Below, in pieces: positions 5,124 through 29,855 of a DNA stretch of 64,000 bases; position 1 is the first letter of the stretch; each line of letters opens with the position of its first letter. The stretch spans positions 1-64,000 of the forward strand of contig NZ_CACXTS010000001.1 in the NCBI RefSeq assembly GCF_902770715.1. The letters are read 5' to 3'. The translations under genes were made by a program, and so were the position numbers. This DNA comes from an uncultured Methanobrevibacter sp. Lineage in GTDB: Archaea > Methanobacteriota > Methanobacteria > Methanobacteriales > Methanobacteriaceae. A model generated the notes under the pieces. The model ran no database searches, was not told the DNA's origin, and saw nothing but the letters and a program-made list of their open reading frames with translations.

Positions 5124-5135
5124 AAGGTGGTTTCA

Positions 5136-5669
5136 TTGGGGGAAATCTGGGAAGAAAGACAAACAGATGAAAAAGGCACAGAAACAGCCAGAGCATTTGA
5201 AGTATTCACCCAATATTTATATCTAGAAAAACCTAGACTATCTTACCCCAAATTTGAAAAATGGTTGATTGAACGCTACCAGGAACTGCCGGACACTGCC
5301 ATAAAACCTGCAACTAAATCTAATATCGAATATTGGTCTAAAAGATGGCATTGGAAAGATAGGTGTGATTCATTTGATTTACAGCATATCGAAAAATTAA
5401 GAAAAGATAATAAAGTTCTTGTTGATGATGCTTTTGGCAACCAGGTCCGAACTCTCCTGGAACAAATTGATGATCTTGATGATGAAAGAAAATCTATAAA
5501 AAAATCCACTCTTAATAAGGATAAGAAGGTTTTATCTTTGAGACGTAATAGTGAGAATAAAGCAATTCTCATGAAAGAATTACGTTTAATCATGGGCATG
5601 TCTACTGATAATAATAAATCTGTAGTTGAACATAACGGTTTGAAAAGGTTAGCAGATGCTTTCAAGTAG
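5136..5669 (+). CDS. Terminase small subunit
   Basis: A 177-residue protein. The TTG at 5136 has AAGGTGG five bases upstream, better placed than a GTG at 5127 that lies inside that site. The N-terminal half carries a helix-turn-helix-like segment ending in SNIEYWSKRWHWKDRCDSFD, a pattern typical of small terminase subunits that recognise the packaging site. The rest is a helical oligomerisation region. It overlaps the large terminase gene by 14 bases, the usual arrangement. Confidence 0.75.
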   Translation: MGEIWEERQTDEKGTETARAFEVFTQYLYLEKPRLSYPKFEKWLIERYQELPDTAIKPATKSNIEYWSKRWHWKDRCDSFDLQHIEKLRKDNKVLVDDAFGNQVRTLLEQIDDLDDERKSIKKSTLNKDKKVLSLRRNSENKAILMKELRLIMGMSTDNNKSVVEHNGLKRLADAFK

Positions 5670-6945
5670 TAAACAATATTGGAATTGGGGAGAAACTAGT
5701 CCCAAAAGTAAAGATTTTTTCCATAATAGTGATGCTTGGATTAACATTATAGATGGTGCTGTTAGATCTTCAAAAACTATAACGTGCAGTGCAAGATGGT
5801 TAAAATTTTTAAGTGAAAGCCCTCATGATGAATTTCTCATGAGCGGTAAAACTATCAGTACACTAAAAAGGAATGTTTTAAATAATTTCTTTAAAATGTT
5901 AAACACTGAAGACATCTGGTATCATCATGACCGCTACGAAAATATCCTATATGTTGATGACAAAACTATTTACCTCATGGGTTTTAATGATGAGGGAGCC
6001 ACAGATGTTGTTGCAGGAATGACTGTTGGAGGATGGTATGGTGATGAGGTTACACGTAACCCAAAATCAACAATTGAAATGGCCATATCCCGTTGCAGTT
6101 TACCTGGAGCAAAAATGTTCCTGAACATGAACCCAGCAAGTCCATATCATTTTTTATATAAAGACTACATCAATAATAAAGACCTGTTAAAAGCAGGTAC
6201 AGTTAAAAGATGGCATTTTTTATTAGAAGACAATCCTAACCTTCCAAAACAATATGTTGAAGAATTAATCCGAGTAAATAAGAAAAATCCATTGTTCTAC
6301 AAAAGAAACATTCTCGGTCAATGGGTTATTGCTGAAGGTGCTATTTATGACATGTTCGATGAGGATGTTCATGTTTACAATGGATCATGTAAAGTCGATG
6401 ATATGAACATCACCTGTGACTATGGTGTTTCAACTGTAACAACATTCGGAGTAATAGGCATTAAAAAAGACCTGGTCGATGGGAACACATACTATCTGGC
6501 AGATGAAACATATTATGATGCTGAAGTAAAAGGAGTAACACAATCAGATAGTGATAGAGTAGACACGATCGTAAAACTTCAAGATAAATACCACCTTACA
6601 AAATACAATACTATTTTTCTCCCGCATGATGCAGCTTCACTAAAAGCAGCATGTAAAAAAGATAAAAGAATACGAATGAAGGTAAGAACCTATACTCCAG
6701 ACACTTATGAGGACATTACCACCATTCAAAATTTATTTGCTAATAATCGATTTTTCATAAACTCAAAATGCAAACATAGCATTACTCAAGCTCAATCTTA
6801 CTGTTGGGACACCAGAGCCCAACAACGTGGTGAGGACAAACCATTGAAAATTGATGATCACTGTCCAGACATGTGGCGTGGAGGCATACTAGGCCCACGT
6901 AAAAACAAAGGAACATCATTAAGAAAACGTAAAAAAAGGAGTTAA
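5656..6945 (+). CDS. terL: Terminase large subunit (DNA-packaging ATPase/nuclease)
   Basis: A 429-residue protein, normal for the family. The N-terminal ATPase shows a Walker A-like GAVRSSKT (residues 34-41) and a Walker B GGWYGDEV with Asp130-Glu131. The C-terminal RNase H-like nuclease begins near CDYGVSTVTTFGV (about residue 255), with further acidic residues in DHCPDMWRGG near the end. It drives ATP-dependent DNA packaging into the prohead and cuts the DNA. It overlaps the small subunit gene and lies just ahead of portal. Confidence 0.93.
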   Translation: MLSSSKQYWNWGETSPKSKDFFHNSDAWINIIDGAVRSSKTITCSARWLKFLSESPHDEFLMSGKTISTLKRNVLNNFFKMLNTEDIWYHHDRYENILYVDDKTIYLMGFNDEGATDVVAGMTVGGWYGDEVTRNPKSTIEMAISRCSLPGAKMFLNMNPASPYHFLYKDYINNKDLLKAGTVKRWHFLLEDNPNLPKQYVEELIRVNKKNPLFYKRNILGQWVIAEGAIYDMFDEDVHVYNGSCKVDDMNITCDYGVSTVTTFGVIGIKKDLVDGNTYYLADETYYDAEVKGVTQSDSDRVDTIVKLQDKYHLTKYNTIFLPHDAASLKAACKKDKRIRMKVRTYTPDTYEDITTIQNLFANNRFFINSKCKHSITQAQSYCWDTRAQQRGEDKPLKIDDHCPDMWRGGILGPRKNKGTSLRKRKKRS

Positions 6946-6953
6946 AAAGAATC

Positions 6954-8387
6954 ATGAAAGTTGTTACTAACCAATTTTTAAGACAAGCCGTAATCAAAAG
7001 TGTACTTAATGAATACGATATAAAATCACAAGAATTAAGTAAAGATGACTTACAATATGGGGATGAAGTAATCCAACCTCCATATGACCCGTTTAAACTT
7101 AATAAATTAAGAGAAGTTTCAGGGTTACATGATATTTGCATCACTACAAAATGTGAAGATGCTATCTTCAATGGTAAGAAACTAATTAGTAAAAACGGTA
7201 AAGACATACCTCCTGAATTGGATGAAATTTTAAATGATTTTAATTTTGATGAGGAAACCGAAAAGTTCACTGAAGACCTGGACACATTTGGTTATGCTGG
7301 CCTTGAAATCTTAAGAGAAGGTAATCAGTTCAAAAGCATTAATCATATCAGCAGTTTGTATCTGAGAATGTGTAAAGATAAGAAAAGAGTTGTTAACAAA
7401 GTCGGAACTAAAACCACTTATTTTAAAGTATATGACCCTAACAATAACGATGTCTTAAACAAAAATACTGGAAGATTTAATGAAGGCATAACTAGTGAAA
7501 ATATTGCAAATGAAATATTATGGTTTAACACTCATTCTTCAGATTCCAAAGTCTATGGAAAACCTAAATACTTATCAGAATTACCAGCAATCATAACAGA
7601 CAATGCAATTGTTGAATATCAACATTCACATTTCAGGGCAAAAGGAGTTCCTAACTATGTTATCACAATCAGCGGTAATGTTGAGGAAAAAGAAGATTAT
7701 TCTGCTGATGATTTTGAAAGAGACTTGGAAAGAGAATTTAAAGATGTGACTAATGAACCAGGAACTGCAATGTGCATTTTCTTACCTAGTGAAGATAACA
7801 ACCTTACGGTTTCTGTTCATAAAATTGGTGAGGAGAAAAAAGAAGGTAGTTTTCTTGAATTAGCTGAAAGTATTGGTGATCGTATACGTCGTGTTCACCG
7901 TGTACCTCGTGAGAGACTCGGTGACAGTGAAGGTTCAGGAGTAGGTTCCAATCGTACTGAAATGCTACTTAAAAATTACAGTAAATCCACTGTTGGAACA
8001 TTACAAAAAAGAATCGCAAACTTCATCAATAAAACCATTATCAAACATGAATTTGAAACTAATGATATTTTAATTGAATATTTACCTGTTAATTTTGAAG
8101 AGGAAGAAAACATTCTTGAAAGAGGCATTAAACTCTTACAGAATGGTGCTATGACTTTAGGTGAATTTGTTAACAGGTTTGGTGAACCTTTTGGTTTAAG
8201 TATGGATGAGAATAATGAGTATTATGATACTCGATATATGAATAATCAATCATTAGATACTGTGTTGTATGGTAATGATCCAATGGATGCTGAAGGTAAA
8301 TTAAATAAGATGATTGATGACATGGAAGAGGATATGAATAATCTTAATCCTTCTCAATTTGAAGAGGATGATGATTTAGAAGAATAA
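6954..8387 (+). CDS. Portal protein
   Basis: A 477-residue protein. Position directly after the large terminase, length, the motif-rich middle (GYAGLEILREG, RRVHRVPRERLGDSEGSG) and an acidic C-terminal tail all fit the phage portal family (SPP1 gp6/HK97-like). The portal forms the dodecameric ring at one capsid vertex through which DNA passes. The acidic tail (MIDDMEEDMNNL...EEDDDLEE) is typical of portal C-termini. Confidence 0.88.
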   Translation: MKVVTNQFLRQAVIKSVLNEYDIKSQELSKDDLQYGDEVIQPPYDPFKLNKLREVSGLHDICITTKCEDAIFNGKKLISKNGKDIPPELDEILNDFNFDEETEKFTEDLDTFGYAGLEILREGNQFKSINHISSLYLRMCKDKKRVVNKVGTKTTYFKVYDPNNNDVLNKNTGRFNEGITSENIANEILWFNTHSSDSKVYGKPKYLSELPAIITDNAIVEYQHSHFRAKGVPNYVITISGNVEEKEDYSADDFERDLEREFKDVTNEPGTAMCIFLPSEDNNLTVSVHKIGEEKKEGSFLELAESIGDRIRRVHRVPRERLGDSEGSGVGSNRTEMLLKNYSKSTVGTLQKRIANFINKTIIKHEFETNDILIEYLPVNFEEEENILERGIKLLQNGAMTLGEFVNRFGEPFGLSMDENNEYYDTRYMNNQSLDTVLYGNDPMDAEGKLNKMIDDMEEDMNNLNPSQFEEDDDLEE

Positions 8388-8407: not shown

Positions 8408-10108
8408 ATGTATACAAGACAACAACAATTAATTTATGCAAAACAATTAAAGAGATTGCATGAATTATATGTGATAAAGAGTAATATTCATCTAACTTAC
8501 AAATATAAGAATCAAAACAAAGCAATAAACAAAGCACAATCCTTGCAAGATAAAATTATCAATGCAATCATAGATGATGCTGTTTATGGAAATGCTTCCA
8601 GTATCCGAAATATTGATTCTATTATTGAAGAGTTAATGACTACTACTTTAGAAAATGAAAGAAAACGTATACATCATGAACCGGATAGATGGGTTGATCA
8701 TGCTGTCGAAGCTAATGCTGGAAGATATAGTGAAATATTAACTAATCGTATCAACACCGAGGCAATTAAATTAGAGCAGAAAATAGAATCTGAACTCCGC
8801 AGTGGCATCCATAATGGTTTAAGTGAAGCTCAAACAAAAAGAATTCTCAAAGAAAAATACGGCAACACTGCAAAAGCAAGAATCAGAAACATCATAAGAG
8901 ACAGCGTACACACAAACGAATCCAACATCAGTTTCATCAATGCCTTAAATGAAGGTTACTCTTTTAAGGTTTGGATGAATGGTGCAGGTAAAGGAAGAGT
9001 AAGGAGATGGCACAGAGCAAAAATTATTGCACCTGTACCAATTGAGGATTACTTTGATATCTACGGACCATATGGTCACAAAGAATCAATGTATCCTGGA
9101 GACTTATATAGTGGAGCAGAAAACGTGGCTAATTGCAGATGTTGGTTAAGATATACCAATCGCAGACCTGAAGGATTGGGCAAAACACAAAACGTCTTCA
9201 ATATTCCAACCACTTCATACCTACATCCATCAAATAAACCCGGCAATAATGGAAATACTACTGGTGCAAAAACAATATCAGTAGAAACCATTAAGACACG
9301 TATATCACAAACCCGAAAAAAAGTAACTTCCAAGATTAAAGGTATTGGTAAGAAACTCACATCAAAAATCAAAACACCAAAAGTACAATCCACAAAACAT
9401 GATCCAAAAAAGAAAACTCAAAAATCAAATTTAGGTTTCACTAATTTAAATCCTAACAATATTCCAAAAAAATTTAACAAAAAGATTTCTAAAGTTGATA
9501 ATTCCTCACCTCGAACAATAGAACAAATTAGAAAAGATATCTTAAATGATAAGTCTTTCACAAAATTCATTGATGAAATATTATACCACAATAATAAAAC
9601 AAAAGGAAACTTGATTGAATATTTAACAATTGTTGATAAATCACATAAAATTTTAAAAAGATTTATTAAAGGAATTAATGGGCATGTTAAAATCCCTGAA
9701 AAATTTAAAAATAAAAAACTTCATATGACTATTCATAATCATACTCATGGGGCAGTAATACCTTCACGTGGGGATATGGTTAATAATTTAAAACATGATG
9801 CTAAATATGGAGTTATCACTGCTGAAACTAGATTTGGAGTAATAAAATACAAGACAAACTTATCGTTAAACCAAAAAGAGTTAATTTTAGCCGTACATTC
9901 CACATTTGTATTCAAGATTTTCGATGATTTTGAAAAAGTTGAAAGTAAAAAAATTAAAGGTATGGATAAAAATTCCGATGAGTATACTATATTATTTAAT
10001 CAATTCGTTTCAAAGAATATTAATAAATATGTGAATGAATTTAATTCTAGACTAAAAGTTTATGATGTAGAAATTACATATATTAATATACAAAGGAGAT
10101 TCCGATGA
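8408..10108 (+). CDS. Minor head protein (SPP1 gp7/Mu F type) with C-terminal JAMM-like peptidase domain
   Basis: About 566 residues from the ATG at 8408 (GGAG six bases upstream; 8405 and a TTG at 8396 are alternatives). The N-terminal ~260 residues are a Mu F/SPP1 gp7 head-morphogenesis domain, ending with the diagnostic GAENVANCRCWLRY. A Lys/Thr/Pro-rich linker follows. Residues about 375-560 form an extra domain with HNHTHGAVIPSRGDM: His443, His445, Ser453 and Asp456 in the H-x-H-x7-S-x2-D spacing of JAMM/MPN+ zinc peptidases (compare RadC), and Glu404 39 residues upstream as the expected catalytic acid. This suggests a metallo-peptidase fused to a head protein. The gene overlaps the 81-aa gene that follows by 4 bases. 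Confidence 0.8.
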   Translation: MYTRQQQLIYAKQLKRLHELYVIKSNIHLTYKYKNQNKAINKAQSLQDKIINAIIDDAVYGNASSIRNIDSIIEELMTTTLENERKRIHHEPDRWVDHAVEANAGRYSEILTNRINTEAIKLEQKIESELRSGIHNGLSEAQTKRILKEKYGNTAKARIRNIIRDSVHTNESNISFINALNEGYSFKVWMNGAGKGRVRRWHRAKIIAPVPIEDYFDIYGPYGHKESMYPGDLYSGAENVANCRCWLRYTNRRPEGLGKTQNVFNIPTTSYLHPSNKPGNNGNTTGAKTISVETIKTRISQTRKKVTSKIKGIGKKLTSKIKTPKVQSTKHDPKKKTQKSNLGFTNLNPNNIPKKFNKKISKVDNSSPRTIEQIRKDILNDKSFTKFIDEILYHNNKTKGNLIEYLTIVDKSHKILKRFIKGINGHVKIPEKFKNKKLHMTIHNHTHGAVIPSRGDMVNNLKHDAKYGVITAETRFGVIKYKTNLSLNQKELILAVHSTFVFKIFDDFEKVESKKIKGMDKNSDEYTILFNQFVSKNINKYVNEFNSRLKVYDVEITYINIQRRFR

Positions 10109-10350
10109 AAATGAATAATATTGGTTTGGAAGCATATTATTTTAAATGTATTAAAACTATGTACTCTTTAGAGGACAATCCAAAAGAATTACTTAATTTT
10201 CAACGAAAATTAAAGGAAGAAAATTTAGAGAGATATATTGAAATATTAAATCTAAAAAAGAGTTTGGAATCTGAAATTGTCAATATTAAACAAGCAATGT
10301 TGTATGGTGATGATCCAATTATCAATGAGAAATTATTTTCTAATGTCTAA
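10105..10350 (+). CDS. Small helical protein coupled to the JAMM-bearing head protein
   Basis: An 81-residue protein, mostly helical with charged residues (LKEENLERYIEILNLKKSLESEIVNIK). It starts inside the end of the previous gene (ATGA overlap) after AAGGAGA. The close coupling to the JAMM-like domain suggests a partner, chaperone or inhibitor of that domain; this is inference from position only. No family recognised. Confidence 0.55.
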   Translation: MKMNNIGLEAYYFKCIKTMYSLEDNPKELLNFQRKLKEENLERYIEILNLKKSLESEIVNIKQAMLYGDDPIINEKLFSNV

Positions 10351-10396: not shown

Positions 10397-10623
10397 GGTA
10401 AAATTTTTTTCAATTATATTTACACTTGTAATCTGTTTATGTTTTGTACGAATTTTTAGTAACCCGAAAAAACCAATTTTTTGACTCTATTTTAATTTTT
10501 TGATTAAACATTTTATTACATAAAAAAAATATTTTTGAAAAAAATTTAATTATCTTCTTCTCAATTTCTATCTTTTAAAAAAAATATAATAGACCTCAAA
10601 TGACTATTGGAGGCAATAAAAAG
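10397..10623 (+). promoter_or_regulatory. AT-rich non-coding gap within the head module
   Basis: About 230 bases without a gene in an otherwise packed late region. It holds two short AATTTTTTGA repeats and long A/T runs, and ends with a ribosome site (TGGAGG, 10607-10612) for the protease. A break of this size between minor head protein and protease is unusual and suggests an internal promoter/terminator or the edge of an inserted segment. Confidence 0.4.
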
Positions 10624-10968
10624 ATGATTGTTAAAGGACCAATTCTCATACCAGGTATTCCAGATATGTCAGGGGATATACTTGACGAGGAAACTGTTCG
10701 AAGAGCAGCTTTAATAATCGCTCGAAATGGTGTTCTAACTGATGTTCAACATACCCTACGAAATGTGGGCAAAATACTTGGATTATATGTTCTTGACACA
10801 CCAATGGATTGGAGAGGAGACATGCTACCTAAAGGCACCGTCATGGGGAGTATTGATGTAATCGATGATGATATACAACAAGGCATCCGTGAAGGTAAAC
10901 TAAACGGTTTCAGCATTCTTGCAGCTCCAACACGCACAATGGAAGAAATGAATAGGGGGATAAAATAA
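10624..10968 (+). CDS. Prohead protease, XkdF-like, N-terminal part
   Basis: 114 residues from the ATG at 10624 (TGGAGG 11 bases upstream; an ATG at 10600 overlaps that site). The opening KGPILIPGIPDMSGDILDEETVRRAA, then DVQH (His43), LPKGTVMGSIDV and GKLNGFSIL (Ser97), follows the XkdF-like putative serine protease pattern; His43 and Ser97 are the likely catalytic pair. The frame continues past a single TAA (10966-10968) straight into the next gene, so protease and scaffold look like one protein split by one stop codon. It would trim the scaffold during capsid maturation. Confidence 0.75.
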   Translation: MIVKGPILIPGIPDMSGDILDEETVRRAALIIARNGVLTDVQHTLRNVGKILGLYVLDTPMDWRGDMLPKGTVMGSIDVIDDDIQQGIREGKLNGFSILAAPTRTMEEMNRGIK

Positions 10969-10971
10969 ACT

Positions 10972-11610
10972 ATGGCTCTTGAATTTAAAGATATTGGTGA
11001 TTGGACTCCTTCTACAATAAGCATTGTTGATGTTCCATACCATCCTTTAGCATATTTTGAAGTGTATGAGAATGATGAGGAATTCGTTAAAAAATTTAGT
11101 GAATCGAAGAGGGATATAATGGCTAATAATCCAGATAGTGAAACTAACGTAACTATGAGTGAAGGTTTCTTTGAAAGACTGTTAAATACTCTTGTAGCTA
11201 AAAGAGCTCCAGAACCAACCCAAACCCCACAAAAACAAACTGGGGATGATGAAGTTACTAACGCTCAAATTTTAGAAAAATTAGATAAAATCGATGCTAG
11301 GGTAACCGCTATAGAAAATAATGTGGAACCTAGTGAACCAGACCCAGAACCAAACAATGATGATGATCCTGAAGGTGATGACGCTAATAACCCAGAACCA
11401 AACAATGATGATAATCCGGCACCACAAACTGTTGAATTACCATTAAATGAAGATGGAACACTCAACCTTGATGATGGTGTTGTAGCAAAATACCTTCCAA
11501 GAGGCACAAGTATTTCACAAGCATTAGATGTGGATCTTCAACGTGGAAATTCATCCGGTAAATCATTGAATGAACGTACTGGTAGAAATGAAAATGGTAT
11601 GAATTGGTAA
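10972..11610 (+). CDS. Prohead scaffold (C-terminal continuation of the protease frame)
   Basis: 212 residues, in the same frame as the protease and one codon after its TAA. The first ~40 residues (DIGDWTPSTISIVDVPYHPLAYFEVY) match the segment that closes XkdF-type proteases (SLVD-x-PA-like). Then follow a coiled coil (AQILEKLDKIDARVTAIENN), an Asp/Asn/Pro repeat tract (two EPNNDD units, residues about 120-150) and a basic tail, as in capsid scaffolds. The ribosome site is poor and distant, so translation probably restarts after the upstream stop. It sits directly before the major capsid gene, as expected. Confidence 0.65.
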   Translation: MALEFKDIGDWTPSTISIVDVPYHPLAYFEVYENDEEFVKKFSESKRDIMANNPDSETNVTMSEGFFERLLNTLVAKRAPEPTQTPQKQTGDDEVTNAQILEKLDKIDARVTAIENNVEPSEPDPEPNNDDDPEGDDANNPEPNNDDNPAPQTVELPLNEDGTLNLDDGVVAKYLPRGTSISQALDVDLQRGNSSGKSLNERTGRNENGMNW

Positions 11611-11648
11611 ACATCATATTTAAAGTCTTATTTTTAAGTGATTAAATC

Positions 11649-12965
11649 ATGTCAATAAATATTGTTGAAAACGAAATTAAAAATGCCGTAAAGCTCGGTA
11701 AAAAATTTGTAATTAAATTTGTAGACATCGGCGAAGGTGAAGGAAAACTTAATGATGGTATTCTTCAAGCAGAAAAAGCTCCTACTTACCTTCAAAAATT
11801 AGATGAAGAAGCAGTATTCCTTAACAGGACTAAAAGAATTTTATCTACTAACCATAAAAGGCAATTAGATAAAATGGAATTAAGAGTAGAATTAGAAGCA
11901 GGCAGATTAAATGGTGTGCCTCAAGTATTATCTGATTCTCAAGACCCTAACTTCTCAAGCAGGAATTTCGATGCTGAAGAACTCCGTGCATTAACAGGTC
12001 TTCATACAACTGTAATGAAAGACAGTATTGAAGGTCAAGGATTCATGAACACCTTAACTTCAAGATTCGCAGTTGCAAACGGACTTGCAGCAGAAAGAGT
12101 GTTAATTTTCGGAGATAAATCATCTAACAATCCACCATCCACCGCATATAAAGTAATCGACGGTATCTGTAAAAAAATGGGTGATGACGCAGATATTAAT
12201 AATGAAACTATTGATTTAACTGCTCAAGATTCAGATCCATTAACTGAATTCTACAGATTCTTAGACATGTTCCCAGATGTTTACAAAGTTGATGGAGGCA
12301 TGGCTTGTTTCGCTCCATCCAAATTTGTAAGAAGCGTAAGAAGATTCATCGTAGGCAACCATTACAAATTCAACATTGATGCTTCCATTAATCAAGATGG
12401 AATTCCTGTTGTTGAAGATGTTCCATTAATCGCTGTTCCACAATTTAGTCTTCCAACTGCTTCAAATCCAGTTAACGGTTTCACCAGAAAACCGATTATC
12501 TTAACTCATAAAGAAAACATCCAATGGTTAGCAGACCCAGATGACATTCTCGTTCAATCTGCATTCAACCTCAGAGCTAACGTGTGGGATATTGCTTCTA
12601 CAATGTATAATGATATTAACTTTGCTCAAGAAGATGGTTCTGCTTTAGCATGGTTAATTGAAGGATCCGCATCCACACCTGAAGTTACTCCAGGAGCAGA
12701 TGACCCAGAACCAGTAACCCGTAACATCTCAGTATCCGTAACCGATGGAACCGACCCAGTTGAAAATGTAGATGTGGTATTGGAAGATGCTGAAGAACAC
12801 CAATACACTGGTAAAACAGGTTCAGCAGGTGGTTGTACAATAAGTAATGTTCCAGAAGGAACCTACAGTGTTGCAGCTTCCGCAACAGGATACACTGATT
12901 ACACTGGAACATTTGAAGTAAGTGAAAATAACACTACACTTAGCATCACTTTAACTACACAATAA
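11649..12965 (+). CDS. Major capsid protein with C-terminal Ig-like (carboxypeptidase-regulatory-like) domain
   Basis: 438 residues. Residues 1 to about 338 are the HK97-fold coat protein, judged by position after protease and scaffold, length and the absence of other candidates. A Pro/Asp linker (about 340-354) joins a beta-sandwich domain (355-438) with TGKTGSAGGCTISNVPEGTY and DYTGTFEV, a pattern of carboxypeptidase-regulatory/CNA-B-like repeats. The same domain ends the tail tube protein at 14339. It would be displayed hundreds of times on the virion surface. Ig-like decorations are known in other tailed phages and may aid binding to surfaces. Confidence 0.82.
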   Translation: MSINIVENEIKNAVKLGKKFVIKFVDIGEGEGKLNDGILQAEKAPTYLQKLDEEAVFLNRTKRILSTNHKRQLDKMELRVELEAGRLNGVPQVLSDSQDPNFSSRNFDAEELRALTGLHTTVMKDSIEGQGFMNTLTSRFAVANGLAAERVLIFGDKSSNNPPSTAYKVIDGICKKMGDDADINNETIDLTAQDSDPLTEFYRFLDMFPDVYKVDGGMACFAPSKFVRSVRRFIVGNHYKFNIDASINQDGIPVVEDVPLIAVPQFSLPTASNPVNGFTRKPIILTHKENIQWLADPDDILVQSAFNLRANVWDIASTMYNDINFAQEDGSALAWLIEGSASTPEVTPGADDPEPVTRNISVSVTDGTDPVENVDVVLEDAEEHQYTGKTGSAGGCTISNVPEGTYSVAASATGYTDYTGTFEVSENNTTLSITLTTQ

Positions 12966-28860: not shown

Positions 28861-28995
28861 ATGTGTTTAAAAATGTGTAAATTAGAATGTCAAGGTTGCT
28901 GTTACAGATATAATTGTGACGGTGACCTGGAAAGATGTTGTTACTTAGTGAAAGCTAAGTGTATAGTTGAAAATCCAAATGAGGAGGAATTTTAA
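28861..28995 (+). CDS. Cys-rich 44-residue mini-protein between the two lysin genes
   Basis: Begins immediately after the stop of the tail-tip gene and ends in TAA overlapping the lysin ATG (TAATG at 28993-28997). Nine of 44 residues are Cys (positions 2, 6, 10, 13, 14, 19, 26, 27, 34). It also supplies the GAGGAGG ribosome site for the lysin. Could be a disulfide- or metal-stabilised mini-protein, perhaps Fe-S or zinc. No family recognised, but position suggests a lysis-related role. Confidence 0.5.
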   Translation: MCLKMCKLECQGCCYRYNCDGDLERCCYLVKAKCIVENPNEEEF

Positions 28996-29855
28996 TGAAA
29001 TTTAAAGCAATTTATGAACTTGCAGTATTGGTTAAATCTTATGTTGAAAAACATCATGAGTTACCGGCTAAAATGTCTACAATAAGTAAAGCGGAGTACA
29101 GTTATTTATTTACAAAAACTGTTATGAATCCTGGAAAGGAAATTGCACAACTGCATTATAAAGACGCACCAAACCCAACAGGTGATGTTATCAATAAAGT
29201 GTTAACAAGAAAAGAATATCAAGATATAGCAAGTGATGTAAATAACTTCGTTTCACCAAACAAAAGGTTGCCTAATTATGATAAGTATCAGAATAAGAAA
29301 ATTAACATAAATCTTTGTGTTTATTGTTTCGCAAAGATCATTAAATTTTATGGGGAAAATCATCGTTTACCTAATACTTGCAAGTTTGACAGTAGTGTTT
29401 TCAAATCTAGTTCCCCATCCAAGTATACTACAAAAGGTGGGAAAGTATGTAAACAATTAATGAAACTTGCAAAAATGAGCATCAACACTTATAACGATGT
29501 GTATAAAGCAATTGCCAAAATCTTTACTTATGATTTTTATTATGATGATTTGCAAACTCAAGCTCAAACAATCGCAAGAAGAAAAGGCAATTGCACAGAT
29601 TTGAATCAAGTTGAAAGAGCAGCATTAAAGGAACTCGACTATGATGTCCAGATAGTCAGAGGTTTGGTCCGATGCAATGATGGTAAAAACTACGGTCATG
29701 TATGGTGCCGTATAAAAATTAATGGCAAATGGATTAATATTGATGCTTCCGCAGCTGCAAAAGGCAAACCGATTGGCAGTGTTATCTGTGCAAAAGTTGT
29801 TGAAATCACAAATATAAATCCTAGTTGGGCCGTCAGTGATGATGGGAAAACATAA
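28995..29855 (+). CDS. Pseudomurein endoisopeptidase (PeiW/PeiP/PeiR-type lysin)
   Basis: 286 residues. Two pseudomurein-binding repeats occupy about 1-60 and 95-150 (patterns such as VKSYVEKHHELPAKM and AKIIKFYGENHRLPNTCKFDS). The catalytic domain is transglutaminase-like with Cys200 (KGNCTDLNQV), His235 (YGHVWCRI) and Asp250 (WINIDAS), as in the lysins of Methanothermobacter phage psiM2/psiM100 and the M. ruminantium prophage. It hydrolyses the isopeptide bond in pseudomurein cross-links to release progeny. No signal peptide is visible, so a holin or another route is needed. Confidence 0.92.
   Translation: MKFKAIYELAVLVKSYVEKHHELPAKMSTISKAEYSYLFTKTVMNPGKEIAQLHYKDAPNPTGDVINKVLTRKEYQDIASDVNNFVSPNKRLPNYDKYQNKKININLCVYCFAKIIKFYGENHRLPNTCKFDSSVFKSSSPSKYTTKGGKVCKQLMKLAKMSINTYNDVYKAIAKIFTYDFYYDDLQTQAQTIARRKGNCTDLNQVERAALKELDYDVQIVRGLVRCNDGKNYGHVWCRIKINGKWINIDASAAAKGKPIGSVICAKVVEITNINPSWAVSDDGKT

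Follow-up and report, generated by a model that had tools for sequence, protein, structure and literature searches.

A MuF head protein with a JAMM domain and its small partner gene in a Methanobrevibacter provirus: a probable polymorphic toxin with predicted immunity gene, and relatives kept in host chromosomes and in CRISPR-like arrays

MuF polymorphic toxins are defined by variable C-termini on a conserved MuF part (PMC5576092, PMC3482391), and a small open reading frame (ORF) follows 89.4% of bacterial MuF toxin genes versus 25.5% of short MuF genes (PMC5576092). Archaea are unmentioned in the text of PMC5576092, and Euryarchaeota are given for MuF only in the table of PMC3482391. Here we describe two overlapping genes in a stretch of 64,000 nucleotides (the window; positions 1 to 64,000 of contig NZ_CACXTS010000001.1, assembly GCF_902770715.1) from an uncultured Methanobrevibacter sp. 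The first gene joins a MuF domain to a JAMM/MPN-like domain, and the second encodes a protein of 81 amino acids. We consider that the pair is probably a MuF-type polymorphic toxin and its immunity gene, carried by an archaeal tailed provirus. To judge from the sequences compared, relatives of this predicted toxin and partner are swapped among viruses, and host chromosomes keep copies of the genes, in part within unusual CRISPR-like arrays.

The MuF domain is encoded directly 3' of the portal gene (6954-8387), after TerS, TerL and portal. The preferred start of the fusion gene, the ATG at 8408, is preceded by GGAG and agrees with the start of the homologue in genome G006. The features of the pair are as follows.

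8408..10108, + strand: MuF-JAMM fusion gene, 566 amino acids from ATG 8408 or 570 from TTG 8396; the G006 homologue starts at the equivalent ATG.
8777..9148, + strand: MuF (Phage_Mu_F) domain, the portal-associated minor head part; PF04233 E 3.8e-4 in the genome search, phrog_2468 over residues 70-257.
9221..9493, + strand: basic, K-rich linker, inside which homology among related viruses ends (tblastn matches end at residue 344 for vir075 and residue 330 for MSTV1).
9494..10105, + strand: JAMM/MPN-like domain and C-terminal helical bundle, predicted toxin domain (AlphaFold2; Foldseek against PDB, JAMM1 5ld9/5lda; homologues in family genomes).
9617..9619, + strand: predicted catalytic Glu404, invariant domain column E42.
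9734..9775, + strand: metal-site motif HNHTHGAVIPSRGD (His443, His445, Ser453, Asp456), from sequence and alignment.
10105..10350, + strand: 81-amino-acid all-helical partner, predicted immunity protein (overlap with the fusion gene; homologous small genes 3' of JAMM genes; model).

The MuF region is below the Pfam cut-off (PF04233, E 0.0019) and firm in PHROGs, where it matches head-morphogenesis phrog_2468 (E 2.9e-18). Homology to related Methanobrevibacter viruses is confined to this part of the protein, with vir075 matching only residues 5-344 (74%) and MSTV1 only residues 2-330 (40%). Behind the same packaging module the C-terminus is exchanged: it is JAMM in the window and G006, an ADP-ribosyltransferase (ART) toxin domain in MSTV1 (ADPrib_exo_Tox 6.8e-12, above cut-off) and likewise in G156 (3.4e-10), GNAT-like in vir075 (sub-threshold) and G056, and in IMG/VR contig L046 a domain with HExxH, by inspection. 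Each of these swapped C-termini is then followed by its own small downstream gene. In provirus G038 the MuF protein stops at 321 amino acids, and a 66-amino-acid ORF, probably spurious, separates it from the usual head gene. A family search with the MuF part reached 11 genomes, and those with the full gene show the same swapping pattern. The earlier note on this DNA had stated that minor head proteins often carry variable C-terminal effectors, and comparison across related viruses bears this out, with JAMM, ART, GNAT-like, HExxH or no domain at that place. The locus thus has the marks of a MuF polymorphic toxin: MuF after portal, variable C-termini and a small ORF directly downstream.

The C-terminal domain of the window protein has a confidently predicted JAMM/MPN fold with a complete metal site. 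It carries Glu404...His443-x-His445-x7-Ser453-x2-Asp456 (numbering from ATG 8408), and the motif with its glutamate 39 residues upstream had been read correctly before (443-404 = 39). An alignment of 13 sequences shows no variation at E42, H81, N82, H83, P90 and D94 of the domain; of the residues that the note expected to be kept, both histidines and the aspartate are constant, and the serine is replaced by histidine in two related MuF-JAMM groups (L020, L021). The fold prediction it had called for came out as MPN. An AlphaFold2 model of the domain from six sequences has a predicted local distance difference test score (pLDDT) of 91.9 and a predicted TM-score (pTM) of 0.89, and its matches in PDB are mostly JAMM/MPN chains, the first being Pyrococcus furiosus JAMM1, alone and with SAMP2. 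AF2198, Rpn11, CSN5 and the BRCA1-A/BRISC JAMM subunits are further neighbours. The JAMM1 match has a probability of 1.00, but its E is only about 3e-3 and its TM-score modest (0.35 by query); a long helical addition to the domain presumably accounts for this. Since the residues are invariant and the model matches JAMM/MPN chains, we take the motif to be more than chance. Among 27 predicted viral structures that match the domain at E<=0.001, six are named minor capsid protein (291-614 amino acids, five of them 522-614), and because these six BFVD fold matches are minor capsid proteins, the MuF-JAMM architecture probably recurs in bacteriophages.

By sequence the domain is remote from described families. 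The best hit of a sequence search of PDB is again JAMM1, at only E 0.7, and the Pfam, NCBIfam and PADLOC libraries recognised neither the window's JAMM domain nor the partner. The likeness of the metal site to RadC-like proteins seen in the earlier note did not extend to family membership, as RadC family models give no match to the window domain and one homologue reached E 0.012-0.08, far below cut-offs; membership in RadC was rejected. The Tox-JAB-2 (DUF4329) profile gave no match at E 10 or E 1. Homologues of the C-terminus were found in 21 of 150 relatives by genome search and in 35 of 139 family genomes by JAMM profile search, and a phylum-wide run over 152 genomes found them in no other family. 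A narrow JAMM alignment detected six loci in Methanobrevibacter genomes and nothing in IMG/VR, and three further virus scans were also empty. There is also a second, more distant family of chromosomal JAMM-like proteins of about 240 amino acids, of VASVHNHxxGxxSxPS type (L099, L100, L101, L102); most of its genes are followed by another small gene family (57-73 amino acids, one duplicated).

The partner gene overlaps the fusion gene by four bases (ATGA at 10105), as had been noted from the sequence. Its structure model consists of five helices (pLDDT 81), and the predicted fold matches nothing. A gene for 60-110 amino acids lies 3' of JAMM genes whether these are fused to MuF, part of an orphan cassette or alone in a host chromosome, and most of these small genes match one profile built in this analysis. 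Where a JAMM match has no partner of this profile type, it mostly lies at a contig end, is of a more distant family or has a different small gene. Conversely, 33 of 65 partner matches have no adjacent JAMM match, and some of these 33 are on short contigs. Over 22 pairs, distances among JAMM domains correlate with those among partners (Mantel r 0.66, 0 of 5000 permutations), a result that shared descent of linked, co-inherited genes would also give. Two host loci are fixed sites for the pair, one beside a gatA-like gene and the other between valS- and pheT-like genes, and the pair is intact there in several species. In about seven genomes the JAMM gene at these loci is broken (stops, frameshift, split, internal deletion, insertion, cut down) and the partner ORF intact, and no intact JAMM gene beside a broken partner was seen at the two loci. 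Partners of JAMM also cluster in islands with small genes homologous to the partners of ART and GNAT-like toxins, and these mixed islands resemble heterogeneous immunity loci (PMC3482391). In one genome (G002, L033:7937-8959) a natural single ORF of 340 amino acids joins JAMM and partner, which is suggestive only. With this co-variation and a partner family behind JAMM genes, the coupled partner or inhibitor proposed in the note is best read as an immunity protein that would bind and neutralise the JAMM domain.

We suspect that the MuF-JAMM fusion is present in a few copies at the portal vertex and passes with the DNA into the next cell, where the JAMM domain would act as a zinc metallopeptidase with His443, His445 and Asp456 as ligands and Glu404 as base. 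Peptidase or isopeptidase action would follow from the closest fold: the domain may cleave a host protein or an isopeptide bond, and a cell that has no partner would be disabled or reprogrammed. With archaeal JAMM1 as the closest solved fold, ubiquitin-like (SAMP/MoaD-type) tails are a natural first candidate substrate. The 81-amino-acid protein would bind and silence the domain in lysogens and producer cells, and a host with a matching partner on its chromosome would be protected. The steps from virion packaging to toxicity are drawn from MuF biology (PMC5512222, PMC5576092) and from partner genetics.

Several points weigh against a toxin and its immunity gene. We infer entry into cells, catalysis, toxicity and neutralisation from gene and model data. 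Toxin-type JAB domains that have no ubiquitin-tail groove were proposed to be nucleases (PMC3482391), and the window domain may act in that way too. The partner has no similarity, in sequence or fold, to a known immunity protein, and divergent partners share only 16-29% identity, such that their treatment as a single family relies on position, length and hidden Markov model (HMM) match. Finally, the JAMM gene is about 2.7 times as long as the partner gene, and broken JAMM genes beside intact partners are in part to be expected for that reason; the chance of seven out of seven broken JAMM genes by length alone is about 0.11.

Four other explanations were considered alongside the toxin. The JAMM domain could be an injected anti-defence effector that removes a host defence protein or a ubiquitin-like modification, with the partner as chaperone or assembly brake. 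JAMM enzymes do act on ubiquitin-like tails, the best fit is archaeal JAMM1, and the host genome encodes two MoaD/ThiS-type proteins of 67 amino acids that terminate in GG, and it has one Prok-JAB protein of its own. We found no direct evidence for SAMP conjugates or a defence protein as the target, which the earlier note had suggested, and these host proteins are at most compatible with it. We regard this explanation as unlikely, as the C-terminus is swapped for enzymes of other chemistry, each with its own small gene, and partners persist on host chromosomes where no effector is present, which a virion chaperone would not explain. The note's further proposal of a maturation protease, or more broadly a JAMM domain that processes a head protein, serves assembly or decorates the virion, would suit its fusion to a head protein upstream of the capsid genes. 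However, the domain is dispensable, and maturation is highly improbable because in close relatives the same MuF part is joined to unrelated enzymes (ART, GNAT-like, HExxH) or to nothing, the G038 protein ending at 321 amino acids; moreover, a separate protease-like gene is in the usual place, annotated as a serine protease in vir075.

The cell wall peptides of the host contain isopeptide bonds and JAMM enzymes are isopeptidases, and an enzyme that cuts pseudomurein during DNA entry can therefore be imagined. Its probability is close to negligible in our view: MuF proteins are at the portal and not at the tail tip, the stand-alone copies in host chromosomes have no obvious signal peptide (by eye), and an immunity-type partner would be needless. 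Stand-alone JAMM and partner are found in many species at two conserved sites of the chromosome, which raises the question of whether the unit serves mainly the host, as a toxin-antitoxin or defence module, and was picked up by viruses. This is very unlikely. The toxin precedes its partner, many copies have decayed and most genomes have none; other genera of the family also have forms fused to MuF, and minor capsid proteins of phages are similar in structure, all of which points to flow from virus to host. We prefer the MuF-type toxin with its immunity gene.

The host-kept copies include some in unusual arrays. In the one-contig genome G011, a locus with two JAMM modules (L041:3157-14359; G011:C1:93157-104359) has 12 copies of a direct repeat of 37 nt, all but one identical. 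The repeats are 0.4-2.6 kb apart and adjoin Cas1 (5.7e-70) and Cas2 (4.6e-7); no effector cas genes were recognised near this Cas1-Cas2 locus, and the repeat distal to Cas1 is degenerate, as in CRISPR arrays. Four spacers (529, 499, 483 and 414 bp) are full-length copies of the genome's own chromosome with 4, 1, 0 and 3 mismatches (99-100%), the perfect copy being the one nearest Cas1. Another holds the portal 3' end, MuF-JAMM and partner. The same locus with other contents is found in G034, which carries MSTV1 (L162:10320-16655), and one of its spacers begins inside the same MuF-JAMM gene and is 99% identical to the G011 spacer over 834 bp. Further spacers at these loci contain 3' ends of MuF toxin genes and immunity genes. 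These observations strongly suggest that pieces of DNA are copied into arrays of the 37-nt repeat.

Other 37-nt repeats with kilobase spacing lie beside similar Cas1 genes in G029, G021, G010, G056 and G063 (L175, L176, L177, L178, L180), and also in L126 (G037, for which no Cas1 was found); in G044, two such repeats flank an orphan JAMM-partner cassette (L042:8121-9133). Another type of Cas1 in some of the same genomes adjoins short-spaced repeats of the ordinary CRISPR kind. Over eight arrays, with spacers of 335-4299 bp (median 891), 16 of 47 spacers hold a recognised toxin or immunity module, although five of the eight stretches were chosen for containing a module and only 1 of 11 spacers has one in the three chosen by Cas1 alone. 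No toxin or immunity module was found outside the arrays in the eight stretches. It is possible, if somewhat doubtful, that solo Cas1-Cas2 copy viral and chromosomal pieces of 0.3-4 kb into arrays and that captured immunity genes of JAMM, ART and GNAT-like type are expressed and shield the host from viruses that bring the corresponding MuF toxins, which would amount to heritable immunity at the level of genes. Repeats of a different kind (TTCGTAAAATAAGGGTTTAAAGAATTAAATTAAAC type, about 22-35 nt, up to 15 copies 0.35-3.8 kb apart) occur in G150 and G151, of another genus (L095, L130, L131, L136), where they lie between many orphan immunity-type genes.

The late genes of the tailed provirus occupy about 1-29.9 kb of the window, and host genes come after. 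Its gene order (TerS, TerL, portal, MuF gene, small gene, head genes) is also annotated in the Methanobrevibacter viruses vir075 and MSTV1. The remaining features are as follows.

5127..6945, + strand: TerS and TerL genes, packaging module; same order in vir075 and MSTV1.
6954..8387, + strand: portal protein gene, directly 5' of the MuF-JAMM gene, a position by which MuF genes are defined; homologue of the genes annotated as portal in vir075 and MSTV1.
10600..12965, + strand: later head genes (for a small head protein, a protease/scaffold-like protein and the major capsid protein); the vir075 annotation has the same order.

The ORF of the major capsid protein ends in an Ig-like or carboxypeptidase-regulatory type domain (12600-12965), which is a separate overlapping gene in related viruses (L043:12770-13063). 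The last provirus gene (28995-29855) resembles a pseudomurein endoisopeptidase of PeiW type by eye, and host genes start at about 30.2 kb on the minus strand.

From the perspective of host and virus, the toxin reading would extend the idea of virion-delivered polymorphic toxins to viruses of gut methanogens, and would add a JAMM/MPN toxin clade and a partner family foreign to all libraries used. It predicts that the harm a virus or lysogen can do to a cell depends on the partner genes that the host keeps. With MSTV1 and its host in culture, virion content and host protection are directly testable. The arrays with gene-sized spacers, if true, would be a CRISPR-type adaptation that stores whole genes and not short guides. 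A literature search of partial coverage found no MuF toxins in archaeal viruses beyond table entries, and neither JAMM MuF toxins nor Cas1 arrays with gene-sized spacers; because of this partial coverage it is weak evidence of novelty.

Among known systems, siphovirus and myovirus minor capsid proteins in BFVD (for example A0A8S5P082, A0A8S5TVZ9 and A0A8S5MT14), most of them 500-614 amino acids long, match the fold of the JAMM domain with probability 1.00, but did not turn up by sequence search. The best structural matches, P. furiosus JAMM1 and AF2198 (PDB 5ld9, 5lda, 1oi0), have the MPN core and the metal site in common with the window domain; JAMM1 is a cellular protein that stands alone, a deubiquitinase homologue, whereas in the window the core is extended by a C-terminal helical bundle and forms part of a head-protein fusion, with weak sequence similarity between the two. 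Tox-JAB-1 and Tox-JAB-2 (PMC3482391) likewise have a toxin domain of the JAB/JAMM superfamily with E, HxH, S and D and a neighbouring immunity gene. The window pair differs from them in the lack of a DUF4329 match, in its MuF delivery, which the table of PMC3482391 does not give for JAB toxins, and in its different, all-helical partner. Although it belongs to an archaeal tailed virus and combines a JAMM/MPN toxin domain with a partner family that we did not find described there, the pair has most in common with the MuF polymorphic toxins of temperate phages (PMC5576092; MuF delivery, PMC3482391): a MuF domain encoded after the portal, a variable C-terminal enzyme domain, a small ORF immediately downstream and a temperate context.
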